A stretch of 64,000 nucleotides of DNA, taken from the NCBI RefSeq assembly GCF_040939785.1, contig NZ_CP162553.1, positions 2,542,001-2,606,000 on the forward strand, given 5' to 3'. Source of the stretch: Bradyrhizobium lupini (GTDB lineage: Bacteria; Pseudomonadota; Alphaproteobacteria; Rhizobiales; Xanthobacteraceae). Shown here piece after piece: positions 37,701 through 61,584 of the stretch; positions within the stretch are counted from its first letter, which is position 1, and every line of letters starts with the position of its first letter. The position numbers and the translations under genes are program-made. The notes under the pieces are model-generated. The model did not search any database and was not told where the DNA came from. It saw nothing but the letters and a program-made list of their open reading frames with translations.

Positions 37701-38789
37701 TTATGCGTCCCCAATTAGGCGCAAGTTGTCCGTGCTGATAGCAATGTCAAGCACGTCTCCGTGCTGCGGATGACGTCCAAAGGGAAAACGCTCCTGCATT
37801 ATGAGTTGTTCTCCATTGACATCAAGTACAACGCGTGTTGCGCCTCCCAGATAGTGAGAATGGAGGACGCGCGCCTGCTGCCTTTGGCCGGCAGCGCCAT
37901 CGGCCGACAACTTAAGTTGTTCCGGCCGGATCACCACTGTAGCAGGGCCAGCACTCCACTTCCCGATGATGCGAAGGCCAGCAGTCGACGTGAAAGCGCC
38001 CGCATCGTCGACCGTCCCCTTCAGCAGCGAACACCAGCCGATGAACTTGGCGACGAATGGCGTGGCGGGCGTTTCGTAGATTTCGCCGGGCGTTCCAATC
38101 TGCTCAACCTTCCCGGCATTCATGACGACAATCCGATCCGACATTGTCAACGCCTCCTCTTGGTCGTGAGTTACGAACAAGGTGGTAACGTTGACAGATC
38201 TGACTACCTCCTGGAGTTCTTCCCGCATTCGAACTCGTAGCTGCGCGTCCAAATTCGAGAATGGTTCGTCGAGCAGGAGCACCGCCGGTTTAATTGCTAG
38301 CGCGCGAGCTAAAGCGATGCGTTGCTGTTGACCGCCCGATAACTGGCTCGGCAGGCGTTGAGCGAAATGAGGTAACTCGACAAGTTCGAGCATTTCTTCA
38401 ACACGCTTGTCGCGCTTCTCACGCGGCCACCTCAGATTCTCCAGACCAAACGCCACGTTTTCAGCAACCGTCATATGCGGAAAAAGCGCGTAACTCTGGA
38501 ACACCATGCCGGTATCGCGTCGATAAGGCGGTTGATGCGTCATATCGATGTTGTTAATGTGTATACTGCCGGAGGATGGCTCCACAAATCCCGCGACCAT
38601 GCGAAGAGTCGTCGTTTTGCCGCACCCCGATGGGCCAAGCAGGCAGAGAAGTTCCCCTCGCCGAGCCTTGAGCGAAATGTCTGCTACCGCAGCCGCATCG
38701 CCGTAGAGCTTGGAAACAGAGCGCAATTCCACGACAAAGTCGTTGCTTTCGGACACGGCGTCTTCTTTTCCTTCCGACAAGGCGAGCAT
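37701..38789 (-). CDS. ABC transporter ATPase (PotA-like)
   Basis: 362 residues, intact. ATG 38789 follows GGAGGAGAG. Walker A LLGPSGCGKTTTLRM near residue 47, Q-loop VFQSYALFPHMT near 97, signature LSGGQQQRIALARALA near 147, Walker B AVLLLDEPFSNLDAQ near 171, H-loop THDQEEAL near 205, and a C-terminal TOBE domain (TVVIRPEQLKLSADG). It energises the importer formed with the permeases at 38801-40472 and the binding protein at 40557-41612. Last gene of its operon and convergent with the broken M20 gene, with only about 55 bp between. Confidence 0.92.
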   Translation of the reverse strand: MLALSEGKEDAVSESNDFVVELRSVSKLYGDAAAVADISLKARRGELLCLLGPSGCGKTTTLRMVAGFVEPSSGSIHINNIDMTHQPPYRRDTGMVFQSYALFPHMTVAENVAFGLENLRWPREKRDKRVEEMLELVELPHFAQRLPSQLSGGQQQRIALARALAIKPAVLLLDEPFSNLDAQLRVRMREELQEVVRSVNVTTLFVTHDQEEALTMSDRIVVMNAGKVEQIGTPGEIYETPATPFVAKFIGWCSLLKGTVDDAGAFTSTAGLRIIGKWSAGPATVVIRPEQLKLSADGAAGQRQQARVLHSHYLGGATRVVLDVNGEQLIMQERFPFGRHPQHGDVLDIAISTDNLRLIGDA

Positions 38790-38800
38790 CTCTCCTCCGA

Positions 38801-39601
38801 CTACGCGACCCGGTCGGCGCCGATCAAGCGCTCGATCACCAGGATAATGACTAGTGTTATCACGATCATTAGGCTGGATACCGCGGCAACCAGCGGGTCA
38901 TAGCTGGTGTCGACGTAGGTGAATATCTGTACTGGTAAGGTGACGTGGCCACCGTAAGTCAAGAATGCGGAAACTGTAACGTTTCCGAATGATGTAACGA
39001 AGGCAAAGATCGCAGCCGACAAAAGGCCAGGCAGGATGAGAGGCAGAGTGATGCGCCGAATGACCTTCAAAGGCGAGGCGCGTAGATTCATCGCTGCCTC
39101 CTCGAGTACGCGATTATGCAAGCTTAGACTCGCAAGGATGGTGCGCATCACGTAGGGGATGGCAAGTACCAGATGGCCTAGCAGCAAGGGATATATCGTT
39201 TGGGTAAGGTTCAACTTGGCGAAGAGCTGCAACAGACCGATCCCGAGCACGACTGCCGGAACAATCAGGGGTGAGAAGGCGAGCGCTTGCAGGAACCCTT
39301 TGCCAGGAAATGCGAAACGATTAATTGCAAATGCGGCAGCAAAGCCGATCGCTAGTGCCATCGTGGAAACAAGCACGGCAATGTACGTGCTCGTCCAGAG
39401 CGCAGTCATAAACAATTCGTTCTGCCACGCCTCTCGGTACCAGCGCATGGAAAAGCCGGTCGGCGGAAAATTCAACGAGTCACCGCTGGTAAATGAACAA
39501 ACAATCACCAGAAGTGCTGGCAGCGCAAGCATCGTGTACACGATCGCGCGGACGGCCGCCCCGGACGCCGCCATTGCCCGGTCGATAAGATCAACGCGCA
39601 T
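38801..39601 (-). CDS. ABC transporter permease (PotC-like)
   Basis: 266 residues from ATG 39601 (MRVDLIDRAMAASGAAVRAI), which has AAGGAGG upstream and overlaps the stop of the preceding permease by 11 bp. Six predicted membrane helices; the EAA loop EEAAMNLRASPLKVIRRITL with PLILPGL contacts the ATPase. NFPPTGFSMRWYREAWQNEL is typical of the PotC/YdcV branch. The longer frame to 39643 lacks a ribosome site. Confidence 0.92.
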   Translation of the reverse strand: MRVDLIDRAMAASGAAVRAIVYTMLALPALLVIVCSFTSGDSLNFPPTGFSMRWYREAWQNELFMTALWTSTYIAVLVSTMALAIGFAAAFAINRFAFPGKGFLQALAFSPLIVPAVVLGIGLLQLFAKLNLTQTIYPLLLGHLVLAIPYVMRTILASLSLHNRVLEEAAMNLRASPLKVIRRITLPLILPGLLSAAIFAFVTSFGNVTVSAFLTYGGHVTLPVQIFTYVDTSYDPLVAAVSSLMIVITLVIILVIERLIGADRVA

Positions 39602-40472
39602 AGCGCCCTCCTTTCGTAACCACACGAGACGCAGCGAGGGCATTCAGCGCCGCTGTGACCCCAAGTCCGCTCACGAGCAGAATGAACGCCATTGCCGCGC
39701 CGGAGGGCCAATTCAGTTCTGCCATGATGCGCTCATAGATGAGGCTACCGAGCATCGCGACGCGGTTTCCGCCGATAAGCCGGGGAGTAATGAACGCCGA
39801 GATCGAGAGCACGAAAACGAGGTTAAAGCCGGCAAATATGCCCGGAAGCGCGAGCGGAATGACAACTTTGCGGAAGGTCGCCAATCGGTTGGCGCGTAGA
39901 TTGGCGGCGGCGTGCTCAAGCACTGGATCTATTTGAGTGACCACACTCATGACGGACAAGATCATGAATGGAAGGAATTGTTGCACCAGGACAGTTATCA
40001 CCGCTGGCCGGCTAAACAGAAGCTGCTTCGGCGAAGAAGCAATGCCGGAACTTAAGAGGAGTGCGTTGATCACTCCATTACGTCCAAGAATGATCAACCA
40101 CCCAAATACAATGACCACAAGGCTAAGCGTTAGCGGCATGATGACGATAATGATGCGCCACCGCCTTGCCAGAGGCGAAAGCCGCGCAAGCGAGTACCCG
40201 GTGGGGAATCCAATTGCCAAGCAAACCAGGCTGACGATAATCCCGTCGACAAACGTTTCGAATAGCACCGAAGAGTAATAGGAGTCGGAAAAGAAGCGGA
40301 TATATTGCTTCAGACTAAAGCCGCTTCCATCGAGAAGGTGACTCTCAGACAGAAAACTGGCCCTCAGCAATCCGAACGTGGGCACGATCAAGAATATCAC
40401 GAGCAGCAAGATCATTGGGGCTAGCAGGAGCGCAGGGGTGAGGACCCGGCGACTGGCAAGAGGCTCCTCCAT
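39591..40472 (-). CDS. ABC transporter permease (PotB-like)
   Basis: 293 residues; ATG 40472, AGGG at eight bases upstream. First helix TPALLLAPMILLLVIFLIVP, six helices in all, EAA loop EHAAANLRANRLATFRKVV with IPLALPGIFAG. The ending (YERIMAELNWPSGAAMAFIL) matches the segment that is frameshifted in the plus-strand paralogue at 34058. Confidence 0.92.
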   Translation of the reverse strand: MEEPLASRRVLTPALLLAPMILLLVIFLIVPTFGLLRASFLSESHLLDGSGFSLKQYIRFFSDSYYSSVLFETFVDGIIVSLVCLAIGFPTGYSLARLSPLARRWRIIIVIMPLTLSLVVIVFGWLIILGRNGVINALLLSSGIASSPKQLLFSRPAVITVLVQQFLPFMILSVMSVVTQIDPVLEHAAANLRANRLATFRKVVIPLALPGIFAGFNLVFVLSISAFITPRLIGGNRVAMLGSLIYERIMAELNWPSGAAMAFILLVSGLGVTAALNALAASRVVTKGGRYAR

Positions 40473-40556: not shown

Positions 40557-41612
40557 CTACCTTCGGATGATCTTGTTCAGCTCCTCGGTCCAAGCACTGC
40601 GGTTCGCTATAAGTTTCTCCCAATCAACTTTCTTTTTCAAAGCAATGCGTGCCTGCGAATTGAACAACAGGTCCTGGCGAAGCTCTTCTGGCAGAGCAAC
40701 GTCGGTTGTTACTCCGTACCGGAGCGCCCGAGGTACACCGAGGACGCCCTCATCGGACAACAACTGCTCGGCATAGGCGTATGCGGCTTCAGGGTATTTA
40801 ATACCCTTGACCACGTTGATGTAGGTGGTGACCGAGTAAACTCCCTTAGGCGGCACAACAGTGACAATGGGAAGGCCCTTGGTCCTCAGTTCGTGAGCGC
40901 GACCATCCCAGAATATGCCAGCATACACCTCTTCGTTTTGAAACATCTGGATCTCGGCGACATTTGTCTGCGCGAGTGCGACGATATTTGTCTTCGCGGC
41001 GCTCATCACTTTGAACGCAGGCTCTACGTTTTCGATCGAGCCGCCATTTTCGTCGGCCAAGCCCAGAAGGGTCAGAAGGCTGCCGTATGTGGCGGAAGCC
41101 ATAACAACCGCGCGCCCCAGCAGATCAGGTCGCGCAATATCCGAGTAGGAAGCAATCGGCTGCTTGATGTACTTTGAATTGTAGACTGGAATAACCGAAG
41201 CGACGCTGAATGGCACTCCGAATTGCCCGAATTCGCGAAAGTCCGGGAGAATCCGTTTGACGTTCGGGACCTCCGACGCTCTGATCTCCTCGATCATGCC
41301 CGCCTTGGTGAGTTCGACCATGTTCGGGCTATCACCCATAAACAGGTCATAAGGCGGATTGTCTCTATTGGCGATCAGTTTGACAAAGTCGGCTGATGTC
41401 GTGCCGGCAATGAATTGAACCTTGAGCCCGTATCTCTCCTCAAGGGGCGCGGTCACGCTCTTTTTGAGGGCTTCGTCGTAAAGCCCGCCATATCCGTTTA
41501 CGCGCAACGTGATGCCGGAAAATTTCTTCGACTCAGCGTGGACGTAGGGCGCAGCTAGCGCCCCGGCTGTGGCCGTAGCTGCCACTTGCAGGAATGTTCG
41601 CCTCTTTATCAT
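40557..41612 (-). CDS. ABC transporter substrate-binding protein (PotD-like), Tat-type signal
   Basis: 351 residues from ATG 41612, chosen because GAGG lies eight bases upstream; the longer open frame to 41948 has no support. MIKRRTFLQVAATATAGALA carries a twin-arginine motif (RRTFL), with cleavage likely after AHA-like VHA at residue 26. The mature protein (LRVNGYGGLYDEALKKSVTA, DLFMGDSPNMVELTKAG) belongs to the spermidine/putrescine-like binding family that also includes opine and Fe(III) relatives. Its residue set for polyamines cannot be judged by eye, so the substrate stays open. First gene of the intact importer operon. Confidence 0.92.
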   Translation of the reverse strand: MIKRRTFLQVAATATAGALAAPYVHAESKKFSGITLRVNGYGGLYDEALKKSVTAPLEERYGLKVQFIAGTTSADFVKLIANRDNPPYDLFMGDSPNMVELTKAGMIEEIRASEVPNVKRILPDFREFGQFGVPFSVASVIPVYNSKYIKQPIASYSDIARPDLLGRAVVMASATYGSLLTLLGLADENGGSIENVEPAFKVMSAAKTNIVALAQTNVAEIQMFQNEEVYAGIFWDGRAHELRTKGLPIVTVVPPKGVYSVTTYINVVKGIKYPEAAYAYAEQLLSDEGVLGVPRALRYGVTTDVALPEELRQDLLFNSQARIALKKKVDWEKLIANRSAWTEELNKIIRR

Positions 41613-42706: not shown

Positions 42707-43982
42707 TCAGGGAAAGAGACCTCTGGTTCGCTTTGCTCCTTGCACCACGTCAATTCCGATGGCGGTTGCTGCCATTCGATTCGAGATCCGATCGCGTTTC
42801 GCGCGCGCTATGGTTTGCTGGAACGAGCGTTCGAGGATCCGGTACAGACGATCGAATACCTCCGCCTGCTCCCAGAACAGTCGCTGGAGGTCCTGCACCC
42901 ATTCGAAATAGCTGACGATGACTCCCCCCGAATTGCAAAGGATATCGGGCAAAACGAAAATCTCGTCGCCTCGTGTGTGCAGGATTGCATCGGCCTCAGG
43001 CGTGGTTGGACCATTTGCTCCTTCGGCTAGAACTCGGCACTTGAGCTGTCCGGCATTCCGGCCCGTAATGACCTGCTCGATTGCAGCCGGTATGAGGACA
43101 TCGCACTTCTGAATGAGCAACTCCGAGGGGCAATGAGGCTCTGAGAGGAAAAGCCGGCCAGGTGGCCATGCTCGGAAGTATGGCTGTGTAGGGCGGCAAG
43201 GTCGAGACCGCCGGGATCAAAGTATGCCGCCGTGTGATCGCTAACGCCGATGATCTTTAGACCTCTTTCAGCCAGGGCATAGGCTGCTATGGCCCCAACG
43301 TTGCCAAACCCTTGCACAATGGCCGTTGCCCCATCGGCGCGAATGCCGAGAATTTCAAGCACGCGACCGACCAGATAGGCTACGCCGCGTCCTGTTGCCT
43401 CGCGGCGACCGAGTGTACCTCCAGCCGATACGGGCTTTCCGGTGACGATCTCGTTGACGGTCTGCCCCTGATACATCGAATAGGTATCCATAAACCACGC
43501 CATGACTTGCTCGATAGTGCCCATATCAGGGGCCATGACATCGGTATGCGGACCGACGAAAGGGATCATCTCCTGCATATACCGTCGCGATAGAGCTTCC
43601 AATTCGCGCGGCGACAACGCATAAGGATCAACGGTAATCCCCCCTTTTGCTCCGCCATAGGGAAGGCCCGCTAACGCGCATTTCCAGCTCATCCAAACGG
43701 CTAGAGCGGCGACCTCGCCGATGTCCACGGAGGGCGCGAATCGCGTTCCACCCTTGGTCGGCCCGAGCGTCAGGTGATGTTGGACCCGGTAGCCCTGAAA
43801 GACCTCTGTACGGCCATCGTCCCTGTGAATGGGCACGATACGGCGATTGCGCGCTTCGGGTAGAGTAGTCGATCTCTGTCCATTTCCGGTATTTGCAGGT
43901 GATCGGCAACATGCACGAATTGCTGCTTGGCCATTTCGAATACGGGGCCGGCATAGATCGAGCTGTTCATGGGCACTCTCAA
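42707..43982 (-). pseudogene. Glutamate dehydrogenase (Glu/Leu/Phe/Val family), two frameshifts
   Basis: ATG 43982: MNSSIYAGPVFEMAKQQFVH, LQIPEMDRDRLLYPKRAI; a shift near 43845 leads to IVPIHRDDGRTEVFQGYRVQ, HHLTLGPTKGGTRFAPSVDI, AGLPYGGAKGGITVDPYALS (catalytic Lys), DVMAPDMGTIEQVM (catalytic Asp), IVQGFGNVGAIAAYALAERG (Rossmann G-x-G-x2-G). A second shift near 43140 leads to LIQKCDVLIPAAIEQVITGR, CRVLAEGANGPTTPEADAIL and YFEWVQDLQRLFWEQAEV. Length and motifs fit a hexameric NAD(P)-dependent enzyme linking glutamate and 2-oxoglutarate. Both shifts would abolish activity. Confidence 0.9.
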
Positions 43983-44391
43983 AGAGGATCCGGCATGACG
44001 CCGATGGATATCTCAGGTGGCGATAGGAAAAGCGGCCGCCCCATAAAGGGGAGGCCAGTACCTCCGCCGCGAGGACGACAACGAACGTGTTCGGAAGGTG
44101 TAAGGTCGTGTCGCCTCGCGCAGGGCCGAGTTGCGGCCACGAAGCAGCTTCAGACGTCATTCCAGAGCTTGAGCGCCCTCACAAGGCTGAAGCCGTAAGC
44201 ACCTCAACTTCATTTCGTGTTGGTAGGCCAGCAGACTTCGATGAAGACGAGGACGGAGCCGCTCCTCCATGCACCGGTGAGTCGGGCGATAAGTCGGCAG
44301 ATCAGGCATGGGGTGCCCTCGCATGCGGCATGGGTAAATCGGCGCTCTTCAACCGGAAGACGTCTTGCCTCGGCATTCGTTGCGACCGATC
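43983..44391. other. No recognisable gene
   Basis: Short gap between the end of the M20 gene and the glutamate dehydrogenase relic; nothing recognised. Confidence 0.4.
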
Positions 44392-45573
44392 TCAGGTATT
44401 CAGCAAATCAAGAATGTATTTGACGGCAAGTTCCGTCGCCGGAATGATGAGCTCATCCGAGGCTCCGAAAGTCGGCGTATGTACGGGCGATCCGTTGACC
44501 GCCGAGCGGCTACCGAACCAAAAATAGATCGAAGGTACGCACGCCGAGTAGAACCCGAAATCGTCGCTACCTGTGACCTCCTTGCTGGCATTGAAGCCAT
44601 CAGGGCCGGCCGTGTCATGAACGATTTGGCGGAAGCGCCTCACCATCTCCGCATCGTTGACGACAGGGGGTTCACCCGAGCGGATGACGCACTCCGCTTG
44701 GCCACGGTGCATCGCCGCGGCGCCTTCGGCCACTTCCCGCACGCGCTGGCACAGCTGCCCCCTACGTTCTGGGCTGCGAGTTCTGATCGTCCCTTCCATA
44801 ACGACGGAAGGGCAGATGATATTGGTCGCCTCGCCGCCGTGAATGGTACCGATTGTGACCACCGCCCCGTCATCGGGTGGCATTTCGCGCGAGACTACTT
44901 TTTGTACCTCGTTCACGAAGGCAGCGGCGATTGCGATCGCGTCGACGCCCTTATGGGGCGCCGCGCCATGGGCCATCTTACCCGTAATGATAAGTCTGAA
45001 CTGATCGGCCGACTTGGTTACAGCACCCTCGCGCGCGCCAAACTTGCCAGCGGGAATCTCGGGAGCGACGTGAAAGCCGACGGCGTGGTCGAAGCCTTCC
45101 AGCAGGTTCTCATCCTGCACAGTGCGTCCACCCAGCGGCTCGGCCTCCTCGGCCGGCTGGAAGAAGACGCGCACTTTACCTGCGAAGTTGTCGCGCATTC
45201 GATGGAATGCGAGTGCAGCCCCGAGCGCGATCGAGCCGTGCATGTCATGGCCGCAGGCATGCATAACATCCTTGACCTGTGATTGATAAGGGAGGTCATC
45301 GCGCGTCTCCTGGATCGGCAGTGCGTCGATATCGCCGCGTACCGCGATCGAGCGCTTTGGGCCGGAGGCCGTGCCTTCAATATCGATGTAGAGGCCGGTC
45401 GTGTGGAAAGTATTGGTCTGGTTGAGACCAAATTGCTGGAGCACGCTCCGAATCCGCTCCTGTGTTTTCCATTCGGCATTTGAGAGTTCAGGCTCACGAT
45501 GCATCGCATGCCTTAACTCGATCACTGCATCACGCTCGGACTCCGATAGAAAGCTGTTGGTGCGCGCTCTCAT
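44392..45573 (-). CDS. M20D-family amidohydrolase (hippurate/IAA-amino-acid hydrolase-like)
   Basis: 393 residues, intact. SIAVRGDIDALPIQE near residue 74 holds the H/R-x-D region, DVMHACGHDMHGSIALGAAL near 103 the C-G-H-D metal motif, FFQPAEEAEPLGG near 138 the catalytic E-E, HVAPEIPAGKFG near 171, GKMAHGAAPHKGVDAI the dimerisation-lid segment, and PVHTPTFGASDELI near 366 the last metal His. Family members split N-acyl-amino acids, hippurate, or auxin-amino-acid conjugates. No signal peptide, so cytosolic. The ATG at 45573 is preceded by GAGAG. It shares direction with the racemase-like and second M20 genes upstream. Confidence 0.9.
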   Translation of the reverse strand: MRARTNSFLSESERDAVIELRHAMHREPELSNAEWKTQERIRSVLQQFGLNQTNTFHTTGLYIDIEGTASGPKRSIAVRGDIDALPIQETRDDLPYQSQVKDVMHACGHDMHGSIALGAALAFHRMRDNFAGKVRVFFQPAEEAEPLGGRTVQDENLLEGFDHAVGFHVAPEIPAGKFGAREGAVTKSADQFRLIITGKMAHGAAPHKGVDAIAIAAAFVNEVQKVVSREMPPDDGAVVTIGTIHGGEATNIICPSVVMEGTIRTRSPERRGQLCQRVREVAEGAAAMHRGQAECVIRSGEPPVVNDAEMVRRFRQIVHDTAGPDGFNASKEVTGSDDFGFYSACVPSIYFWFGSRSAVNGSPVHTPTFGASDELIIPATELAVKYILDLLNT

Positions 45574-46027: not shown

Positions 46028-46735
46028 TCAAGGAACGGACGCCATCATCTGCCGGCAGAGACCAACGACGTCGTAGACGGGCAGCCTCGCAACACGACGA
46101 ATTGCCGGAGCAACGATCGGGAATGCAGCACATTCGAATAGAATGACCGCGATCTGCGGGTGCGCGTCGCGAAGTCGGGCGACGCAACTGGCCACATCCG
46201 CCTCAATGGCAGCCACATCGGTTGCCGGCGCCGGACGCTTTAGCTCGTCGTGCCAAAACTTGCCGCCTTCAATGCCACCAATCACGACTCTTGCCCGCTC
46301 GTTCGGGTCGTCAAGTCCAAGCAGGTCTTCGCTGCAACACTTGGAGTCGTAGGTTAGAACAGCAAGCTTGGCCAGCGGCGGCAACTGCCGAAGCAAAGCT
46401 GGCAGCAACAGCAGGCTAGACATCCCCACAGGAACATTTACCGAGGCCGCGACCGCGGCCTGGTGACGGATAGAGAAGCCGCAAGTCGAACTGATCGCGA
46501 CGGCACCCCGCTCCACCAGACGCCGCGCGGCCGCGATGAAAGCCGGCTCGAGCAAAGGATCCCCGCGTACGACGTTCTCAACCCATGCCCCCTCGACCGT
46601 TTCGTAGACCACGGGAAAGTCGAAGCTGGCTGGATTCAGCATCGAGCCACACGGCGGAGTCGGTGGCGTCGCGCCGGGTGGCACCCCGCGCTCGAGCTTG
46701 AGAATTCCCAATGCATGTGGAGTGTCTGCTGTCAT
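46028..46735 (-). CDS. Aspartate/glutamate/hydantoin racemase-family protein
   Basis: 235 residues, intact. Cofactor-independent racemases of this family use two cysteines: here ISSTCGFSIRHQAAVAA near residue 84 and VILFECAAFPIVAPAIRR near 200. The N terminus LGILKLERGVPPGATPPTPP and the segment YETVEGAWVENVVRGDPLLE are typical of a subgroup annotated only as Asp/Glu/hydantoin racemases, whose real substrates are mostly unknown (maleate isomerase is another relative). Between two M20 amidohydrolases, so conversion of a D- to an L-acyl amino acid, or the reverse, before or after deacylation is a reasonable inference. Confidence 0.85.
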   Translation of the reverse strand: MTADTPHALGILKLERGVPPGATPPTPPCGSMLNPASFDFPVVYETVEGAWVENVVRGDPLLEPAFIAAARRLVERGAVAISSTCGFSIRHQAAVAASVNVPVGMSSLLLLPALLRQLPPLAKLAVLTYDSKCCSEDLLGLDDPNERARVVIGGIEGGKFWHDELKRPAPATDVAAIEADVASCVARLRDAHPQIAVILFECAAFPIVAPAIRRVARLPVYDVVGLCRQMMASVP

Positions 46736-47395: not shown

Positions 47396-48592
47396 CTAGG
47401 CTGTTCGCGCTCCTAACCACCGCCGCGACAATTCTACCCAGTATGTCGATCCCAACGAGAGTATCTCGTCATTGAAATCGTAACTGGTATTGTGAAGAGC
47501 GCAGGGACCCGGCCCGTGGCCCTCCTCACGGTGCTCCCCGTCCCCGGCCCCCACAAATGCGAAGGCACCAGGGCGCGCCTGTAGCATGTATGCGAAATCC
47601 TCGGAGCCCATTGTCGGTACAACGTCCGTGTCCACTCTCGCCTCGTCAACAATCGATTTCATTACTTCCCCCGCAAAGTGTGTTTCAGCCGACGTGTTCA
47701 CCGTGGGCGGATAGCGTTTAATTGTGAGTTCCGCCCTACATTCATATGCCGCGGAAACATTTTGGACGATCGTCTGCATCCTGGACTCGATGAGATCCAA
47801 TGTCTTCTCGTCGAAAGCTCTTATGGTGCCGGCAAGTTTGGCTGTATCTGGGACGATGTTTCTCGCCTCGCCCCCATTGAACTGAGTGACAGATAATACT
47901 GCTGCATCCATTGGATTCTTGTTGCGGGTGATGATGCCCTGGAGCGCCGTGACGATTTGTGAACCCGTCAAGATGGGATCCTTTCCATCATGCGGAAACG
48001 CAGCGTGCGCGCCAACCCCGATGATCCGAATGTCAAAATTGGTGCATCCCGCCAAAATCGGACCAGACCTAATGCCGAAGCTGTTTACAGGCAGGCCTGG
48101 CCAATTATGCAAACCGAAGACTGCGTCGACCGGAAACTGTCTGAAGATACCCTCATCCACCATCACCTTCGCGCCCGAGCCATTTTCCTCCGCCGGGGAG
48201 AAGATGAATACGATTGTGCCATCGAGATCTCGAGTACGTGCCAAATGGCGAGCAGCGCCCAACAACATCGCCATGTGCCCGTCATGACCGCAGGCATGCA
48301 TCTTTCCGGGATACTGCGACCGATGCGCGAACCCGTTGAGTTCCTGCATCGGCAGGGCATCCATGTCCGCGCGCAATCCAATCGAGCGCTTCCCGTCACC
48401 AACGCGCAGCACGCCGACCACACCCGTGCGACCGAGGCCACGGTGCACCTCGATGCCATATTCTTTCAACGTCGTGGCAATGAGATCCGACGTTTCGGTC
48501 TCCTCGAAAGCCAACTCCGGATGAGCATGGAACCAGCGTCGCAATGCCCTCGTCTCTCCTTCGGCGGCCTTTATCTCTGGGATGGTTCGCAT
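47396..48592 (-). CDS. M20D-family amidohydrolase
   Basis: 398 residues, intact; ATG 48592 has GGAG at seven bases. RSIGLRADMDALPMQELNGF near residue 69, KMHACGHDGHMAMLLGAARH near 97, FIFSPAEENGSGAKVMVDEG near 130, GVGAHAAFPHDGKDPILTGS near 188, TMGSEDFAYMLQARPGAFAF near 331, and LHNTSYDFNDEIL near 365 give all metal and catalytic positions. Distinct from the M20 enzyme at 44392 (only the motifs are alike by eye), so the two likely take different acyl or amino parts. Confidence 0.9.
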   Translation of the reverse strand: MRTIPEIKAAEGETRALRRWFHAHPELAFEETETSDLIATTLKEYGIEVHRGLGRTGVVGVLRVGDGKRSIGLRADMDALPMQELNGFAHRSQYPGKMHACGHDGHMAMLLGAARHLARTRDLDGTIVFIFSPAEENGSGAKVMVDEGIFRQFPVDAVFGLHNWPGLPVNSFGIRSGPILAGCTNFDIRIIGVGAHAAFPHDGKDPILTGSQIVTALQGIITRNKNPMDAAVLSVTQFNGGEARNIVPDTAKLAGTIRAFDEKTLDLIESRMQTIVQNVSAAYECRAELTIKRYPPTVNTSAETHFAGEVMKSIVDEARVDTDVVPTMGSEDFAYMLQARPGAFAFVGAGDGEHREEGHGPGPCALHNTSYDFNDEILSLGSTYWVELSRRWLGARTA

Positions 48593-51951: not shown

Positions 51952-53040
51952 CTACTCCTTCAGAACGCTTGCGTCGTTCGCGACCCAAGAGGCGACACAC
52001 GCATCGCCGATCCCGGGCAGTGCTTCAGCTGAGACGTTGAGCACCTTCGACGTCAACTGCAATCCATACTCCGTGCGAAATTCGACGATGGTCGCATCAC
52101 CAATGAATGTCATGTCGACAATACGCCCCTGAACTCCACGCGCATTTCCGACGGCTTTGTCGAGGCGCAAATGTTCGGGTCGCACACAAAGCGTCGCATC
52201 CATATCCGCCTCAGGCCGATGCGCGGCAGCCAAGTCCTCACCGCCAGGCCCCTGAAGGACGCCGGACCTGAGCTTGACGGGGATGAGATTTACCTCACCC
52301 ACAAAACTGGCAACAAACAAATCGGCGGGCCTGCGATAGATGTCCTGCGGTGCGGAAACCTGCCGTATCCGGCCCTCATGCATCACCGCTATCCGATCGG
52401 ACATGGCAAGAGCCTCATCCTGATCATGGGTGACATAGATCATCGTCTTGCCGACTTCCTTATGCAGGGTCTTGATCTCGTTCCTGAGATGCTGGCGCAA
52501 CTTTCTATCCAGCGCACCGAGAGGTTCATCGAGAAGCAGGACAGGTGGTTCGAAAACCATTGCTCTGGCAATCGCCACTCTCTGCTGTTGACCGCCGGAC
52601 ATTTGGTGAGGGTATCGTGAGGCCAGGGCAGTTAGGTGCACCTGGTCAAGGACGCGATGCACGCGGGTTTCGATCTCCGCTTTAGGCATACGTCGCATCC
52701 GAAGCGGATATGCGACATTCTCGGCGACCGTCATATGCGGGAATAGGGCATAGTTCTGGAAGATCACGCCGAGTTCGCGACGGTGGGGCGGCAGTCGCGT
52801 GATATCCTTGTCATCCAACAAGATCTGACCGCTGTCCGGCAACTCGAAACCAGCGATCATCATCAGAGTTGTCGTCTTTCCCGATCCGCTCGGGCCCAGC
52901 AATGAGACGAACTCTCCGGGCGATATCGTAAGGCTGACACTATCAACGGCTGTTGCGCGACCGTACCGTTTGTGCAGGTTATTCAGCACAATCCCGCCGG
53001 TCTTCACATCAGCGCTGGTCAACCCGGCTTTCATCAGCAT
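51952..53040 (-). CDS. ABC transporter ATPase (PotA/FbpC-like)
   Basis: 362 residues, intact. Walker A LLGPSGSGKTTTLMMIAGFE near residue 49, Q-loop VIFQNYALFPHMT near 94, signature MSGGQQQRVAIARAMV near 145, Walker B PVLLLDEPLGALDRKL near 168, H-loop THDQDEALAMSDR near 202, and a TOBE domain with LCVRPEHLRLDKAVG. Third importer of the window; more distant from the two at 35 and 38 kb, which resemble each other. 48 bp downstream of the fused permease. Confidence 0.92.
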   Translation of the reverse strand: MLMKAGLTSADVKTGGIVLNNLHKRYGRATAVDSVSLTISPGEFVSLLGPSGSGKTTTLMMIAGFELPDSGQILLDDKDITRLPPHRRELGVIFQNYALFPHMTVAENVAYPLRMRRMPKAEIETRVHRVLDQVHLTALASRYPHQMSGGQQQRVAIARAMVFEPPVLLLDEPLGALDRKLRQHLRNEIKTLHKEVGKTMIYVTHDQDEALAMSDRIAVMHEGRIRQVSAPQDIYRRPADLFVASFVGEVNLIPVKLRSGVLQGPGGEDLAAAHRPEADMDATLCVRPEHLRLDKAVGNARGVQGRIVDMTFIGDATIVEFRTEYGLQLTSKVLNVSAEALPGIGDACVASWVANDASVLKE

Positions 53041-53088
53041 TTGGGCTCCATTTGGTGCTCTGTTCGTCTGTTAACGTGCTCTCGTACC

Positions 53089-54852
53089 TCAGACACTTTT
53101 TCTGCGCCGAAGCCAGGCACTCACGATGATGACAGCCGCGGCCAGCACCACCTGCAGAGTGGCCACCGCCGAAATGGTGGGATCGACGCCTTGCGAGATG
53201 CTTTGCCACATAAGCATAGGCAGAGTGGTGATCACTCCGATGCCCAGGAACAGCACGTACACGACATCATCGAAGGAGTGCAGAAAAGCAAAAAACGCGG
53301 CCACGATAAAGGCCGGCGTAATCAGTGGAATAGTGATCGTGCGGAATGTGGCCCCGGGCCCTGCGCCAAGGCTGCGAGCCGCCCGCTCATAGGCCGGGTT
53401 GAGGTCACGAAGATTAGCGACAATAAGGACCACTACGTAGGGGATCGAGTAGACGGCTTCGCCAAGCGCGAGCCCGAACTCGGTGCCCTGAAGGCCTACC
53501 CGAGCCAACACGAAATAGGTGGCAATCGCCACCACGATGGTCGGCAGGATGATAGGGGAAAGCACGAGAGCAACCACTGCTCCGCGACCAGGTATGCGGC
53601 CGCGCGCAAGACCGAAAGCAAGTGTCGCCCCGAGCGCCATTGCCATGGAGGTTGCCATCAGTGCGACGCGTATGCTTGTAAATGTCGCATTTATCCAACC
53701 AGCATCGGAGACGTACGCTTGATAGTTGCGAAGCGAATAACCAGGCGCGGGGAACTCGAAAAAGGCGGACGAACTGAACGAGAGATATGCCACGACCAGT
53801 ATCGGTAGGAGAAGAAGCGTTCCTAGAAGGGACGAAACGATGGATACACCATAGCCGCCCAGAGAGGGCAGCCAGCGGTCGAGAACGTTAGCCGCAGACC
53901 CAAGATGCATCAGCCACTGCTTTCGCGTGTGGGGACTGGCAACGGCATCTTGACCGTCGGACAATCCCAAAAGCTGATTGATTGGAAAGAAGCGGGATCC
54001 AATCCACAGCGTCGCCAGCACCGAGACCAGAAGTACGATGGACAGCGCGGATCCGGAGCCCCAGTTAAGATGATCAACCACCTCGCTATAGATCTGCATC
54101 GTGATCGTGAAATCGGACAAGCTGCCGAGCAGTGCCGGGGTGATGTAAAAGCCAAGGCAGTTGACAAACACGAGCAGCACTGCGGCCATGACGCCCGGCA
54201 AGCTGAGCGGCAGGAACACCGTCACAAACGCCGCAATCGGGCTCGCACCGTTGGCTCTGGCGGCACGCAGCAGCTTTTCATCAATGCTCGACATGACGGT
54301 GTACATAGGAAGGATCATGAGTGGCAAGACTATCTGGGTCATGCCAATGATCACGCTTGCGCGGTTGTAGAGCATTGAAATTGGCTGGGAGATGAGGCCT
54401 AATTTGAGCAGGAGATCATTGATAATCCCGCCGCGCCCCAGAAGAACAATCCACGCGAAAGTGCGCACCAATACGCTGGTGAAGTACGGCAACACAACCG
54501 CAATGAGAAGGAATGTGCGCAGGCTCGATGATTTGCTCGTCGTCAACGAGTAGGCCATGGGATAGCCAAGCATCAAGGCGAGCGCGGTGACCGATATGCT
54601 TATCTGCAACGTGGTGCGCAATACGGCCAGGTAGACCGGATCCCTACCGATTCCTACAAAGCGCGCGAACGTCCAATTGGGCATTCCGAGCGAAAGCATC
54701 AGGAGCCCAGCGAGCGGCACGAGAAAGAGCAGCGCAAGGAAGATACCGCCCGGCAGCAGGAGCCAAGCCCATGGCGTGGGCCCGGCCGAGTGCGCGACCG
54801 CCGACGACTCTGACGGGACGTTGCCTGTCGGCAGGATCACTGTACGCGCCAT
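53089..54852 (-). CDS. Fused double ABC permease (PotB-PotC-like)
   Basis: 587 residues from ATG 54852, whose first 16 bases overlap the end of the binding-protein gene. Two full permease domains lie in one chain: domain 1 with EAA loop LLRAARANGASPIAAFVTVF and LPLSLPGVMAA, domain 2 with YERAARSLGAGPGATFRTIT and IPLITPAFIVA, about twelve membrane helices in all. The linker near residues 320-360 is hydrophilic (LSDGQDAVASPHTRKQWLMH). Fused permeases are familiar from the Fe(III)/thiamine and some putrescine-type importers, and differ from the two-gene arrangement of the other two systems here. Confidence 0.92.
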   Translation of the reverse strand: MARTVILPTGNVPSESSAVAHSAGPTPWAWLLLPGGIFLALLFLVPLAGLLMLSLGMPNWTFARFVGIGRDPVYLAVLRTTLQISISVTALALMLGYPMAYSLTTSKSSSLRTFLLIAVVLPYFTSVLVRTFAWIVLLGRGGIINDLLLKLGLISQPISMLYNRASVIIGMTQIVLPLMILPMYTVMSSIDEKLLRAARANGASPIAAFVTVFLPLSLPGVMAAVLLVFVNCLGFYITPALLGSLSDFTITMQIYSEVVDHLNWGSGSALSIVLLVSVLATLWIGSRFFPINQLLGLSDGQDAVASPHTRKQWLMHLGSAANVLDRWLPSLGGYGVSIVSSLLGTLLLLPILVVAYLSFSSSAFFEFPAPGYSLRNYQAYVSDAGWINATFTSIRVALMATSMAMALGATLAFGLARGRIPGRGAVVALVLSPIILPTIVVAIATYFVLARVGLQGTEFGLALGEAVYSIPYVVVLIVANLRDLNPAYERAARSLGAGPGATFRTITIPLITPAFIVAAFFAFLHSFDDVVYVLFLGIGVITTLPMLMWQSISQGVDPTISAVATLQVVLAAAVIIVSAWLRRRKSV

Positions 54853-55976
54853 GCCAGCCACCGGTCTCCGATGTGCTCGAGATTGGTTTTGCCGTCGGGA
54901 CGCTTGGCCGCAAGCCAAGCAGAATTCTCGTGGATCACCTTGGAGGAATTTTCAGGATTGATGCTGAGCAACGGGACCTGATCAGAAGGCAGATGGTCGA
55001 GCTGATTTATGTTCGGGCCGGGATACCCCGTTCCTATGGTGAACTCGGCAGCAACTGCCGCTCGATTTACGAATGCAATCAGCTTCTGCGCGTTTTCGCT
55101 GTTCGGGCCGCCCTTCAGAACCGTCCAATAGGTGTAGTTCACGTATGCCCCGTCCCAAATCATCTGAATAGGGGCACCCTGACGAATTGCGCTGATCGCG
55201 CGGCCGTCGAAGCAACTCGACATTGCGATCTCCCTATTGAGAAGCAATTGAGGCGCCTCGCTTCCCGCACTCCACCATTTGCTGATGTGCGGCCTGATTT
55301 CGTCGAACTTCTTAAGGGCCCTGTCGATCTTGTCGTCGCTGAGCGGCCAGATGTCAGATTTCGGCACCCCATCGGCCAGCAACGCGAACACGATGTTGTT
55401 TTTTGCATTTGCCGGCAACTGAGTGAGACCGCGGGGGCCAGGAAACGCCTTGACGTTCCAGAAATCGCCCCAGCTTTTTGGACCATTGTTTCCAAGCGCG
55501 CGCTTATCATAGGCTAACGTCATGGCCGATGCGATCACTGGGACTGCGCTTTTGAGACGAACCGATTGCTCAGTCCCCTTTATGGATTCAGCGTCCCAAA
55601 GGCTATAATTGATCGGGACGAACATGCCCGCTTCGTCCATCGATGGAAGGGTCGACGCCTGTATGAAGGCCGTATCCCAATCAACACGGCCGGCTTGGTT
55701 CATCGCCTTAACCTGAGGCTCGGCAACATCGGCAACGACGTCGACCACCTTGATGCCGGTTGCTTCGGTAAAAGGCTCGTAGACGTATTTCCGAATGCCT
55801 TTAGTGAACAGACCGCCCCAGGAGAACGCGATGACTTGACCACTACCGGCAAGCTTGTCCTGCGCAAAGGCAACTGTCGATCGCGCGAGTGCGGGAATAG
55901 CCATTGCGGCGGCGGCAGCACGAAGCATGCTCCGGCGGCTAAAGCCGGACGGTTGATGTTTAAATAAGTCGCTCAT
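54837..55976 (-). CDS. ABC transporter substrate-binding protein (PotD-like), Tat-type signal
   Basis: 379 residues; ATG 55976 follows AAGGGGAAGCT. Twin-arginine signal FSRRSMLRAAAAAMAIPALA, with cleavage likely after AFA at residue 38. The mature part (VIAFSWGGLFTKGIRKYVYE, DWDTAFIQASTLPSMDEAG, IWDGAYVNYTYWTVLKGGP) belongs to the polyamine/opine/iron-like extracellular binding family. The recurrent Trp and Tyr residues could form an aromatic cage for a cationic ligand, as in PotD, but the exact ligand is open. First gene of the third importer. Confidence 0.9.
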   Translation of the reverse strand: MSDLFKHQPSGFSRRSMLRAAAAAMAIPALARSTVAFAQDKLAGSGQVIAFSWGGLFTKGIRKYVYEPFTEATGIKVVDVVADVAEPQVKAMNQAGRVDWDTAFIQASTLPSMDEAGMFVPINYSLWDAESIKGTEQSVRLKSAVPVIASAMTLAYDKRALGNNGPKSWGDFWNVKAFPGPRGLTQLPANAKNNIVFALLADGVPKSDIWPLSDDKIDRALKKFDEIRPHISKWWSAGSEAPQLLLNREIAMSSCFDGRAISAIRQGAPIQMIWDGAYVNYTYWTVLKGGPNSENAQKLIAFVNRAAVAAEFTIGTGYPGPNINQLDHLPSDQVPLLSINPENSSKVIHENSAWLAAKRPDGKTNLEHIGDRWLAWRVQ

Positions 55977-58045: not shown

Positions 58046-59431
58046 TTACTTCGCGAGCTCATCCATCACTTGCTTGGTCGCTTTGTAAGCCAGATCAACG
58101 ATCTCATCGATTTCAGCTTCGGATACGACGAGGGGAGGGGCAAATCCAAGGATGTCTCCGTGCGGCATAGCTCGTGCAATGAGCCCCCGATCGCGAGCAG
58201 CCTTGGAGATCCGCGCCCCCACCTTGAGTTCTGGATCAAATCGGCGCTTCGTCTGACGGTCAGCAACAAACTCCACAGCGCCGAGCAAGCCCACACCTCG
58301 AACTTCGCCTACGATCTCCAGCTGTGCAAATTTTTCCTTGAGCCGCTTTTGGAAATGCGCGCCGACGGTCTTGGCGCGGTCGCTGAGACGTTCCCGCTCG
58401 ACAATATCAAGCACCGCATTGGCAGCAGCTGCCGCAATCGGATGGCCGGAATAGGTGTAACCATGCGAAAATGCACCAACTCGATCCGCCGCCTCCTCCA
58501 TGACGGCATATACCTTCTCGCCAATAATGGCGGCGGAGAGCGGGACATAGCCGGACGTCAGGCCTTTTGCGACCGTGACCAGATCCGGTTCCATGTCGTA
58601 AAGCGTGCTGCCGAAATCAGCGCCGGTTCGACCGAAACCGCAAATAACCTCATCTGCGATCAGAAGAACATCATAGCGCCTAAGCACGGACTGAACCTCG
58701 CGCCAGTACCCGGCGGGCGGGGGCGTGATCCCGCCCGTGCCAAGCACCGGCTCGGCAATAAATGCGCCGATCGTTTCTGGACCTTCCCTAACGATTAGCT
58801 CTTCAAGCTCCGCCGCCCGCCGACGAGAAAACGACTCTTCCGTCTCGCCCGGCTCGGCTCCCCAGTAGTGGTGAGGCGCGCCCGTGTGCACAATACCCGG
58901 AAAGGGAAGATCCATATGATCGTGGTAAAACGACATGCCGGTCATTGAGCCAGAGATCACTGAGCAACCGTGATAGCCCCGCTCGCGTGAGATGATCTTT
59001 TTCTTCTTAGGCTGGCCACGAAGGTTGTTGTAATACCAGACAAGCTTCGCCTGGGTTTCGTTCGCATCCGATCCCGACAGACCGTAGAATACCTTGCTGG
59101 GCTTACCAGGAGCCATTTGCACGAGACGGTGCGACAAAGTGGCGAGCTCCTCGGTCGTGTGCGCCGCATACGTGTGGTAGTAGGCGAGTTGGTAAGCCTG
59201 TCGCGCAATGGCTTCAGCCACTTCGGTCCGGCCGTATCCGATGTTTACGCAGTAGAGTCCCGCAAACCCGTCGATATAACTGTGTCCCTGCGCATCTTCG
59301 ATGCGGATACCTTTTCCTCCAGTGATGATCGTCGGATCACCAATCTTACCGGTGGCGAAGTCTTTGAGCTGAGTGAAAGGATGGAGAACAGTCGAGCGAT
59401 CTTGTTCAGCGATAGTCTTAATCTTGTTCAT
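58046..59431 (-). CDS. Class III omega-aminotransferase
   Basis: 461 residues, intact; ATG 59431 follows GGAGGAA. GIRIEDAQGHSYIDGFAGLY, FYGLSGSDANETQAKLVWYY (phosphate-binding G-S-D-A-N), RGYHGCSVISGSMTGMSF, IADEVICGFGRTGADFGS (the PLP-pyridine Asp in ADEV), TVAKGLTSGYVPLSAAII with the PLP lysine near residue 289, and FSHGYTYSGHPIAAAAANA. It belongs to the branch with omega-amino acid:pyruvate, GABA and putrescine aminotransferases. Ten bases behind the aldehyde dehydrogenase stop, so co-translated: amine to semialdehyde, then semialdehyde to acid. Confidence 0.93.
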   Translation of the reverse strand: MNKIKTIAEQDRSTVLHPFTQLKDFATGKIGDPTIITGGKGIRIEDAQGHSYIDGFAGLYCVNIGYGRTEVAEAIARQAYQLAYYHTYAAHTTEELATLSHRLVQMAPGKPSKVFYGLSGSDANETQAKLVWYYNNLRGQPKKKKIISRERGYHGCSVISGSMTGMSFYHDHMDLPFPGIVHTGAPHHYWGAEPGETEESFSRRRAAELEELIVREGPETIGAFIAEPVLGTGGITPPPAGYWREVQSVLRRYDVLLIADEVICGFGRTGADFGSTLYDMEPDLVTVAKGLTSGYVPLSAAIIGEKVYAVMEEAADRVGAFSHGYTYSGHPIAAAAANAVLDIVERERLSDRAKTVGAHFQKRLKEKFAQLEIVGEVRGVGLLGAVEFVADRQTKRRFDPELKVGARISKAARDRGLIARAMPHGDILGFAPPLVVSEAEIDEIVDLAYKATKQVMDELAK

Positions 59432-59441
59432 TCATTTCCTC

Positions 59442-60995
59442 CTAAGCCGCCAAGTCGCCGAAGCACACGTACTTCAGTTCCATGTATTCCGATAGACCGT
59501 GCCGAGAGCCTTCGCGTCCCAGTCCTGACTGCTTCCATCCACCGAACGGAATGGGCGGACCTGTAAAGGAAGCGGTGTTGACACCGAGCATGCCGCACTC
59601 GATTCTCTCAGAGAGCCGGAGCGCTCGACGCAGGTTGCCGGTGTACACGTACCCGGCCAAGCCCATTTCGCTCGAATTAGCTCGATTGATGACCTCTTCT
59701 TCCGAGTCGAAAGGTAGTACGGCAGCTACTGGCCCAAAAGTTTCTTCACGCGCGATGAGCATGTCGTCGGTGACTTGAGTGAGCAGAGTCGGAAGAACGA
59801 AGTTCGGGCCCAAATTGTCATCTTTCTTCGCGGTGATGACTTGCGCGCCCTTTACGACCGCATCGACGATTTGCGCCCGGCACTTCTCGGCCACCGAAAG
59901 CTTCGTCATTGGCCCGATATCGCTAGCAGGATTCAAGCCGTGACCGACCTTGAGCTGAGCCATTGCCGCGCTAAGCGCTTCAACGAACGTATCGTGAATG
60001 CCCCTTTGTACGTAAATGCGATTCGCCGCGAGACAGTCCTGACCCGATGTCGCAAACTTGGCAGCCATCACACCTTTGACGGCTTTCTCAAGGTCGACGT
60101 CATCAAAGATCAGGAAGGGAGCATGCCCTCCGAGTTCGAGCGAGACTTTTTTAATGGTCTGGGCCGACCCCTCCAGAAACAAGCGGCCGACCTGGGTAGA
60201 TCCCGTAAACGAGAGGGCTCGCACTCTGGTGTCGCGCAACAGAGGCGTTGATAGCTCGATGGGCTCACCCACTAGAGTCTGAAACACGCCGGCGGGAAGA
60301 CCTGCCTCCTCTGCCAATCTGGCCAGGGCGAGAGCCGACAATGGCGTCTCCGGCGCTGGCTTCACGATGATCGGGCAGCCCGCTGCAAGAGCTGCACCCG
60401 CCTTCCGTGTGATCATCGCGATGGGGAAGTTCCACGGAGTTACCGCCGCCGCGACCCCGATCGGATGCATTCGCACCTGAAGCAGACTGTCAACCTTATG
60501 ACTCGGAATCGTCTCTCCGTATGCGCGCTCCCCTTCTGCGGCGAACCACTCGAGAAAAGCAGCCCCGTACTCAACCTCGTACCGCGCTTCCGCCAGCGGC
60601 TTGCCTTGCTCGCTTGTCACCAACGTGGCAAGGTCTTCCGAATGGTCGCGCATCAATGACGCCCAAGCTCGGAGAATAGCTCCACGCCTTGCCGGCAAAA
60701 AGGCTCGCCAAGCCGGAAACGCTCGCTCAGCCGCCTCTATTGCGAGCGTCATGTCCGCGGCACTGCAGCGCGCAACGTCCGCAATGATTTCGCCCGTAGC
60801 GGGATCCATCACGACGTCTCTTTGGCTGCCCGCAATCCAGCGACCGGCAATGAGCGCAGCCCCCGCGACAAAGTCGCGGCGACGCAGCGTCCGAAGGCAT
60901 GTTGCAGCGACCCCGGCCATCTCCGGATGAATGGTTCGGGCAGCTTGAAAGGCCATCTGTAAAGTCCCGCGCGGTCGCTTGTTGAAATCCATCAA
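59442..60995 (-). CDS. gabD: NAD(P)-dependent aldehyde dehydrogenase (succinate-semialdehyde dehydrogenase-like)
   Basis: 517 residues from ATG 60995; family members are about 480-490, so ATG 60956 (MAFQAARTIHPE) or ATG 60920 (MAGVAATCLRTLRR) may be the true start. VTPWNFPIAMITRKAGAALA and GCPIIVKPAPETPLSAL bind NAD(P); LSFTGSTQVGRLFLEGS holds the G-S-T turn; VSLELGGHAPFLIFDDVDLE has the catalytic Glu near residue 288; ATSGQDCLAANRIYVQRG has the catalytic Cys near 322; FGGWKQSGLGREGSRHGL is the conserved end. Sequence details fit GabD/SSADH best; the symbol is by family resemblance. Confidence 0.9.
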   Translation of the reverse strand: MMDFNKRPRGTLQMAFQAARTIHPEMAGVAATCLRTLRRRDFVAGAALIAGRWIAGSQRDVVMDPATGEIIADVARCSAADMTLAIEAAERAFPAWRAFLPARRGAILRAWASLMRDHSEDLATLVTSEQGKPLAEARYEVEYGAAFLEWFAAEGERAYGETIPSHKVDSLLQVRMHPIGVAAAVTPWNFPIAMITRKAGAALAAGCPIIVKPAPETPLSALALARLAEEAGLPAGVFQTLVGEPIELSTPLLRDTRVRALSFTGSTQVGRLFLEGSAQTIKKVSLELGGHAPFLIFDDVDLEKAVKGVMAAKFATSGQDCLAANRIYVQRGIHDTFVEALSAAMAQLKVGHGLNPASDIGPMTKLSVAEKCRAQIVDAVVKGAQVITAKKDDNLGPNFVLPTLLTQVTDDMLIAREETFGPVAAVLPFDSEEEVINRANSSEMGLAGYVYTGNLRRALRLSERIECGMLGVNTASFTGPPIPFGGWKQSGLGREGSRHGLSEYMELKYVCFGDLAA

Positions 60996-61107
60996 GCATT
61001 CAGGATACTAATGTTGCCAACCGATTTGCGTCGCATTTTGCCGGGAGTCGTTGTGTTTTCTGCACCACCGCGGCATTCTGCGACGAAATTCACTCGGAGC
61101 CTTGATA

Positions 61108-61584
61108 ATGCAATACGACCGGACGGACGCCCGCATCCTTGAGATCGTCCAAAAGAACAATCGCCTGACCTCCGAGGTGATCGGCGAAATGGCCGGCCTT
61201 TCTGCTACCGCGTGTCAACGACGGCTGAAGAGACTTCGTTCGGAAGGCATCATCGAGGCCGATGTGTCGATTGTTTCGGCGAAAGCGGTGGGAAGGCCCA
61301 TCCAAATGCTGGTAATGGTGACTCTGGAACGCGAGCGTTCGGACATCATCGATAAGTTCAAGAAGGCTATCAAAGGTTCAGCTGAAGTCGTCAATGGATT
61401 TTACATCACCGGCGATGCTGACTTTGTTCTGTACGTCACCGCGCGCACGATGGAAGATTACGAGCAGTTCACCCGCCGTTTTTTTTATGAGAACTCGGAT
61501 ATCAAAGGGTTTAAGACAATGGTGGTGATAGACCGCGTGAAGTCGGGTTTTGCGATTCCTGTGGAAATTCCCGACGAGGAGTGA
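61108..61584 (+). CDS. Lrp/AsnC-family transcriptional regulator
   Basis: 158 residues from ATG 61108 (GGAG at eight bases upstream); the open frame to 61051 is unsupported. Helix-turn-helix: YDRTDARILEIVQKNNRLTS, EVIGEMAGLSATACQRRLKR, LRSEGIIEADVSIVSAKAV. The RAM ligand-binding domain follows (LVMVTLERERSDIIDKFKKA, VVNGFYITGDADFVLYVTAR, where the GDADFVL loop binds amino acids). Divergent from the aldehyde dehydrogenase-aminotransferase pair across a 112-bp gap, so it most likely controls that pair in response to an amino acid or the amine substrate. Confidence 0.93.
   Translation: MQYDRTDARILEIVQKNNRLTSEVIGEMAGLSATACQRRLKRLRSEGIIEADVSIVSAKAVGRPIQMLVMVTLERERSDIIDKFKKAIKGSAEVVNGFYITGDADFVLYVTARTMEDYEQFTRRFFYENSDIKGFKTMVVIDRVKSGFAIPVEIPDEE

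Follow-up and report, generated by a model that had tools for sequence, protein, structure and literature searches.

Does the stretch of about 24 kb at positions 37701..61584 of the window studied here encode one catabolic route for a single compound, or several routes lying side by side? The window is the whole 64,000-nucleotide stretch that was analysed (2542001-2606000 of the single-contig 7.8 Mb genome of Bradyrhizobium lupini, NZ_CP162553.1), and positions are those of the window unless the genome is named. A first-pass annotation had listed here two PotABCD-like importers, two M20D amidohydrolases, an Asp/Glu-racemase-family protein, an FAD oxidase, an NAD enzyme for D-2-hydroxy acids (the D-2-hydroxyacid dehydrogenase D2HDH), an omega-aminotransferase (AT) with a semialdehyde dehydrogenase (SSADH) and an Lrp regulator, and had joined them into one pathway for an imported acylated or amide-linked amino compound. 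NCBIfam/Pfam profile searches, by which the gene families were assigned, confirm that these intact genes are real. The region is best explained, in our view and with even confidence, as an array of separable, symbiosis-linked and ectoine-like catabolic modules for small amino compounds and not as one operon.

The distribution of the gene set across genomes is the new part of this result. A total of 195 Bradyrhizobium genomes were searched, a gene being taken as present at E<=1e-40 for the racemase-family gene, E<=1e-80 for D2HDH and for the substrate-binding protein of the second importer (SBP2), and E<=1e-200 for AT. The racemase gene occurs in 45 of the 195, and 43 of these 45 carry nodC as against 63 of the 150 genomes that lack it (p=1e-11). 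SBP2 was found in 15 genomes, all nodC-positive and racemase-positive; D2HDH in 22, all nodC-positive and 19 racemase-positive; and AT in 66 (62 nodC-positive, 36 racemase-positive). When only the 106 genomes that carry nodC are considered, the racemase gene is still associated with SBP2 (p=2e-7), with D2HDH (p=1e-6) and with AT (p=1e-5), as is SBP2 with D2HDH (p=3e-4). Where both genes lie on one contig (20 genomes), the racemase gene is 23-383 kb from nodC with a median of 149 kb; G542, which also has the two on one contig, was omitted from the distance table. In the B. lupini genome itself nodC is found twice above the cut-off (genome positions 2392869-2394050 and 2408114-2409295), the nearer copy about 180 kb from the racemase gene, and because of these nodC genes near the window the region is probably part of a symbiosis island.

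Among 397 genomes of the order, a racemase homologue (E<=1e-15) is present in 113 and exceeds 200 bits in 5; nodC is above the cut-off in 8 of the 397, and these 8 include 4 of the 5. Of 72,556 plasmids, 52 carry a racemase homologue at 1e-20, 46 of them typed as conjugative; 50 of the 52 belong to Rhizobium, Sinorhizobium, Mesorhizobium, Bradyrhizobium, Microvirga or Phyllobacterium, one to Paraburkholderia and one to Agrobacterium, so that relatives lie on plasmids of five rhizobial genera besides Bradyrhizobium. It may be noted that one racemase-bearing plasmid, pMLa of M. japonicum, is presumably not the nodulation plasmid. In the best 120 of 546 racemase protein clusters (1e-20) the only named organisms are Bradyrhizobium, Rhizobium, Mesorhizobium and Microvirga, and the relatives among the matches listed are mostly named hypothetical protein. 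The best 120 of 327 SBP2 relatives name Bradyrhizobium, Phyllobacterium, Microvirga, Neorhizobium, Mesorhizobium and Rhizobium. Multiple copies on one contig were also observed: five SBP2-like matches, one with several stops, at G429:C64:52254-86401, and seven racemase-family matches, five of them in long open frames with 57-70% identity, on G136:C1.

The surroundings of the racemase gene were compared in 38 Bradyrhizobium loci of at most 20 kb (31 genomes, chosen mainly with the best matches first) and in 20 same-island controls, 19 of which were taken from these genomes at about half the distance from nodC to a racemase gene, the one from the B. lupini genome (L160) not being a midpoint. The Mesorhizobium locus L098 and the window near-copy L099 were kept out of this test, and loci L083, L087, L089, L091, L095 and L097 are shortened by contig ends. 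An M24 hydrolase gene is near the racemase gene in 22 of the 38 loci and 2 of the 20 controls (p=0.0004), and a PotABCD-type binding-protein gene in 15 and none, respectively (p=0.0005). The importer ATPase and M20D each reach 11 of 38 against 0 of 20 (p=0.005 each). On replacing L160 by a segment of the B. lupini island closer to the midpoint (L121) the binding-protein count is 15 against 1 (p=0.004), and with all segments of that island as controls it is 15/38 against 2/23, with 11/38 against 1/23 for the ATPase. At longer range, AT lies within 30 kb of the racemase gene in 11 of the 17 genomes compared (median 20 kb; the near copy in G486 contains stops). All 6 genomes compared have an SBP2 copy at most 22 kb from a racemase gene and one at most 20 kb from AT; a single copy satisfies both limits in 4 of them, and two copies do so between them in G533 and G543. 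In 7 genomes the distance between D2HDH and the racemase gene is 4-116 kb.

The genes that co-occur also re-assort as modules, namely importer 1; importer 2 with D2HDH; the racemase gene with a DoeA-like M24 or an M20 gene; and AT-SSADH-Lrp. Importer 2, D2HDH, AT, SSADH and racemase are together in G542 (L102) and G513 (L107), and SBP2 is together with D2HDH, AT, SSADH and racemase in G512 (L112), where no ATPase or permease match was found. Importer 1 accompanies M20, M24 and racemase genes in G515 and G505 (L082, L084), and importer 2 was not found in those stretches. AT-SSADH-Lrp is joined by D2HDH in G509 (L132) and stands by itself in one of the control segments, that of G486 (L147); neither stretch has an importer match. 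EutB/EutC genes are near racemase and M20D genes in G414 and G445 (L085, L087), and what we read as carnitine-type genes adjoin the racemase gene in S. numidicum. The B. lupini island itself holds further copies, SBP2 with the fused permease gene of importer 2 at 2.486-2.489 Mb and D2HDH at 2.5315 Mb of the genome.

One near-identical arrangement is known, in a contig of Bradyrhizobium sp. CSS354, which is collinear with 93-95% identity over 44744-48847 and 48940-62206; the order from importer 1 through SBP2 is the same in the near-copy G535:C30 (L099), taken as the CSS354 record. This collinearity makes the gene set more than a chance one. A search of genome contigs with SBP2 returned this near-copy and one weak match, and in a search of plasmids for near-identical DNA no record covers more than 6% of the region. 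For 15 intact genes (the M24 and NodB-fold genes left aside), comparison with CSS354 gave ratios of nonsynonymous to synonymous substitution rates (dN/dS) of 0.02-0.20, that is, purifying selection, and the genes are thus likely to be still in use, or to have fallen out of use only lately.

The genes of the region, given here with dN/dS in brackets, are on the minus strand except the regulator. Both importers are of the PotABCD type (POPT), each with its substrate-binding protein (SBP), its ATPase and two permease domains encoded side by side. Importer 1 has a PotA-like ATPase at 37701..38789 (0.15), a PotC-like permease at 38801..39643 (0.15; the CSS354 frame has one in-frame stop), a PotB-like permease at 39591..40472 (0.20) and SBP1 at 40557..41612 (0.17), whose start was set at an internal ATG preceding a signal-like sequence. 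Importer 2 has its PotA-like ATPase at 51952..53040 (0.10), a fused PotB-PotC permease with trimmed start at 53089..54840 (0.16) and SBP2 at 54837..55976 (0.14). SBP1 scores 39 bits and SBP2 49 bits on the PotD model, far under its cut-off of 582; SBP2 is a relative of mannopine, agropine and gamma-aminobutyrate (GABA) binding proteins, and its closest match, 3rpw, is named only ABC transporter. M20D 1 (44392..45573; 0.20) and M20D 2 (47396..48592; 0.16) retain the HACGHD and GSDDF/GSEDF motifs, which have a metal role in M20D enzymes. The DoeB2 model scores 231 and 345 bits on them, under its cut-off of 550; M20D 2 has the indole-3-acetic acid (IAA)-amino acid hydrolase homologue 1xmb as best solved relative and also resembles bacterial aminoacylases. 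Between the two lies the racemase-family gene (46028..46735; 0.15), which represents a symbiosis-linked subfamily. Its product scores 166 bits against PRK07475, under the cut-off of 231, so the name racemase is a superfamily label only. C85 and C202 are invariant in 28 of 28 aligned sequences, and two cysteines are catalytic in the Asp/Glu racemase superfamily.

The FAD-dependent oxidoreductase (49136..50800, homology from about 50554; 0.09) is D-2-hydroxyglutarate dehydrogenase-like; its best solved relative is 3pm9 (781 bits), followed by D-2-hydroxyglutarate dehydrogenase (292 bits). Next to it is D2HDH, which is NAD(P)-dependent (50860..51822; 0.11). The class III AT (58046..59431; 0.02) is above the cut-off of PRK07482, and its best PDB relatives are named 4-aminobutyrate transaminase; SSADH, of the succinate-semialdehyde type (59442..60995; 0.17) and 10 bp upstream of AT, reaches 588 bits against a cut-off of 646. 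The Lrp/AsnC regulator is on the plus strand (61051..61584, homology from 61108; 0.04), divergent from SSADH. To the left, on the plus strand, the first-pass annotation had rightly placed a creatinase/DoeA-like M24 hydrolase (31022..32209). DoeA is its best model (386.7 bits, under the cut-off of 613), DoeA 6twk its best solved relative, and E252 aligns with E255 of 6twk, the type of glutamate that forms the substrate adduct in EutD.

From these families a route can be proposed. Each importer module would bring in a small amino compound, the DoeA/EutD-like M24, the DoeB2-like M20D or both would then open a ring or cleave an amide, and the two-cysteine racemase-family protein might adjust a stereocentre. 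AT and SSADH, possibly under control of the divergent Lrp regulator, would convert an omega-amino acid (GABA- or diaminobutyrate-like) to the semialdehyde and on to an acid that enters central metabolism, while D2HDH, which often stands alongside importer 2, may handle a 2-oxo or 2-hydroxy acid. Taken as a whole this would resemble ectoine catabolism with the importers swapped and the enzymes replaced by diverged paralogues. The combination of DoeA-like M24, DoeB2-like M20D and Lrp-AT-SSADH makes amide-linked amino compounds a fair candidate for the substrate class. The first-pass annotation had suggested an auxin conjugate, a betaine or ectoine derivative or an opine-like compound, and these stay candidates.

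One of the nearest known templates is the ectoine/hydroxyectoine set on pSymB of S. meliloti (L119: ehuABCD, eutBC, doeAB), with which the window has in common an M24 hydrolase, a deacetylase slot, an Lrp regulator, an aldehyde dehydrogenase and a class III AT. Identities are 42% for M24, 50% for AT, 53-55% for SSADH and 29% for Lrp, the last three being at most candidate orthologues of the Doe proteins (DoeC, DoeD and DoeX), and the window racemase has no match in the set at 1e-5. In that set we take eutA, of the racemase superfamily, to precede eutB, unannotated and apparently frameshifted in the record. The window has PotABCD-type importers and M20D where S. meliloti has Ehu and DoeB. No EutB or EutC was found in the window by tblastn, and no Ehu-type importer was met there, the best models being of PotA/PhnT2 type (no separate search for Ueh was made). 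The EutA profile did not match the racemase-family protein, which at E<=10 matched only PRK07475 and PRK10481, the EutA model being unvalidated on a true EutA. As the slots are filled but at 29-55% identity and with another importer type, the region would work like ectoine catabolism without being a member of it, and the window genes appear to fill these slots as diverged paralogues. The statement of the first-pass annotation that no operon with this set is known is thus correct for the exact set, to the extent seen here, and fails for the slots, which match a known pathway.

Genuine degradation of ectoine or hydroxyectoine was considered on the strength of DoeA being the best M24 model, the DoeB2 matches of M20D and the likeness of Lrp-SSADH-AT to the neighbours of ehu-eut in S. 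meliloti. With DoeA at 387 of 613 bits, DoeB2 at 231 and 345 of 550, the low identities, no Ehu-type best match and no match to the EutA model, membership was rejected and we give this explanation next to no credence. Simple use of GABA, putrescine or other omega-amino acids, in which importer 2 with AT-SSADH would be a symbiotic GABA shunt and the other genes unrelated, is an unlikely account that still deserves to be taken seriously. It agrees with the names of the AT relatives, with the 588 bits of SSADH and with the GABA-sensor proteins 6dgv and 9d57 and the mannopine/agropine proteins among the relatives of SBP2. Yet the closest SBP2 match carries only a transporter name, the SSADH score stays under its cut-off, and the racemase gene has M24 and SBP genes in its vicinity more often than the controls do. 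The original proposal, a single linear pathway acting on one acylated amino compound, would suit the intact genes within 24 kb, their collinearity in CSS354 and the joint occurrence of SBP2, D2HDH, AT-SSADH and racemase in G542, G513 and G512. The modules are found apart, however (L082, L084, L132, L147), the FAD oxidase and glutamate dehydrogenase (GDH) are not linked to the racemase gene, and the presence of two importers and of two M20D enzymes points to more than a single substrate; we regard this pathway as quite improbable. The first-pass reading is therefore partly supported: the co-occurrence check that it called for did not refute it, and the region is catabolic by family, co-occurring and tied to nodC, but one connected route for one compound is not supported. 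A catabolic-cargo hot spot, that is, a chance collection without shared function in a permissive part of the island, would account for the relics, for gene sets that vary between strains and for the carnitine-type genes in S. numidicum. The low dN/dS, the recurrence of the same few families and the multi-copy SBP2 and racemase genes speak against it, and we think it improbable.

Several results weigh against the modular, symbiosis-linked reading that we prefer. The racemase gene is absent from 63 of the 106 nodC-positive genomes and is therefore dispensable for nodulation. No nodC above the cut-off was found in the racemase-positive genomes G409 and G569, in the AT-positive G340, G553, G571 and G577, or in G136 with its racemase-family matches. 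The association tests ignore the kinship of strains and islands, and their thresholds were set by us. In the neighbourhood comparison (38 loci, 20 controls) D2HDH (5 v 0), AT (3 v 1), Lrp (5 v 1), SSADH (5 v 1) and EutB/C (3 v 0) are not significant, and in these 20-kb loci the FAD oxidase (2 v 1) and GDH (0 v 1) show no enrichment. Bonferroni correction for the 11 families leaves M24 and SBP alone below 0.05; none of the 11 is present in 7 of the 38 racemase loci, and at least one is present in 4 of the 20 controls (none in 16). Segments L121 and L123 of the B. lupini island, outside the original control set, hold SBP2-type genes, and the SBP relatives bind dissimilar ligands. Two promoter-type patterns, the -24/-12 and the NifA sites, are at chance level.

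Related arrangements are found on rhizobial plasmids. R. tropici CIAT 899 pRtrCIAT899b carries a mixed form, with EutB and EutC above the cut-off together with racemase, M24, M20, Lrp, AT, aldehyde dehydrogenase and GDH. On pRlvC of R. leguminosarum UPM791, AT is 77% and Lrp 71% identical to those of the window, and a PotABCD-type importer and GDH are in common. There GDH adjoins the fix-nif genes (fixABCX-nifAB), followed by the importer and a racemase gene that is split in two, with AT and Lrp about 30 kb from the fix-nif genes. The plasmid differs from the window in its aldehyde dehydrogenase (32%) and in a DoeB-type deacetylase, KamA and ATP-grasp that have no window match. The genes for this KamA-family radical SAM protein and the ATP-grasp protein lie between fix-nif and AT-Lrp (L161). 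KamA has no match in the B. lupini genome at 1e-60, and within the window and the compared loci the ATP-grasp matches only in L013 and L120. The two were considered as partners in a rhizopine-like synthesis and set aside on these results; the idea is speculation only. PMC10228743 reports doeD- and doeB-like genes on the UPM791 symbiotic plasmid and diaminobutyrate aminotransferase mutants that do poorer with pea and not with lentil; from gene order, the doeD-like gene is probably the UPM791 AT. Pea bacteroid proteins, as listed in PMC7950203, include the pRlvC GDH, lysine 2,3-aminomutase (RLV_1884, among the 50 most abundant) and the putative amino-acid racemase RLV_1815A, which may or may not be of the present family. 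A genistein-induced succinate-semialdehyde dehydrogenase of the B. japonicum SEMIA 5079 symbiosis island is reported in PMC9069715.

With opine systems the window has the binding-protein family of SBP2 in common (mannopine/agropine and GABA proteins; opine-protein E-values 2e-35 to 2e-23), and no opine-specific enzyme was named in profile scans of the open reading frames examined. The rhizopine mos/moc system is a symbiosis-linked rhizobial catabolism of inositol type. The window is like it in its tie to symbiosis and unlike it in chemistry, and no synthesis gene was identified here, the genome-wide search being for KamA of UPM791 only. The moc genes are treated in PMC3538637, which, with PMC3333776 and PMC6321122, does not settle the matter in the parts available. 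A literature search, judged by titles and the starts of abstracts, gave no paper describing this module set. One may speculate, though we hold it quite unlikely, that these amplified and re-assorting importer-hydrolase-racemase modules of symbiosis islands and plasmids form a nodule-specific nutrient economy, in which the strain and its kin would consume amino conjugates made by plant or bacteroid within nodules or near them, in a rhizopine-like manner with ectoine-type chemistry. The gene set is statistically tied to nodC, lies outside the known nodulation and nitrogenase functions and recurs in several nodulating genera. If the ligands were identified, it could be asked directly which nutrients rhizobia draw on in the nodule and its surroundings, and whether the reward is private to island carriers.

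Relics surround the intact genes. Profile searches bear out two of those predicted by the first-pass annotation, a third M20 without its N-terminus (36212..37645, plus strand; the matches begin at about profile position 100) and GDH on the minus strand at 42707..44160, broken into two frames (43027-44160, 42707-43216) and showing dN/dS of 0.36 and 24 gap positions against CSS354. A diaminopropionate-lyase relic, also predicted, did not turn up in the frames scanned, no search having been aimed at it. A third importer, akin to importer 1 but decayed (33344..36032, plus strand), has potB, potC and potA pieces (potB 55% and potA 50% identical, potC in two pieces). It is followed by the M20 relic, with the DoeA-like M24 gene and a UTRA-type regulator frame nearby. 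Further left, the predicted NodB-type polysaccharide-deacetylase fold is confirmed at 27511-28509, adjoined by a TauD-family dioxygenase frame on the minus strand (28586-29542). Past Lrp, as also on plasmids p187_1 and 62B p1, sits an alanine dehydrogenase gene (L124:1570-2679, genome 2607570-2608679), 89% identical to that of Bradyrhizobium sp. 62B. A nod-box-like pattern with an assumed spacing gave 9 matches at up to 2 mismatches against 2.6 expected, and none of 100 shuffles reached as many; motifs with one mismatch are at 9710-9746 and 59399-59435.

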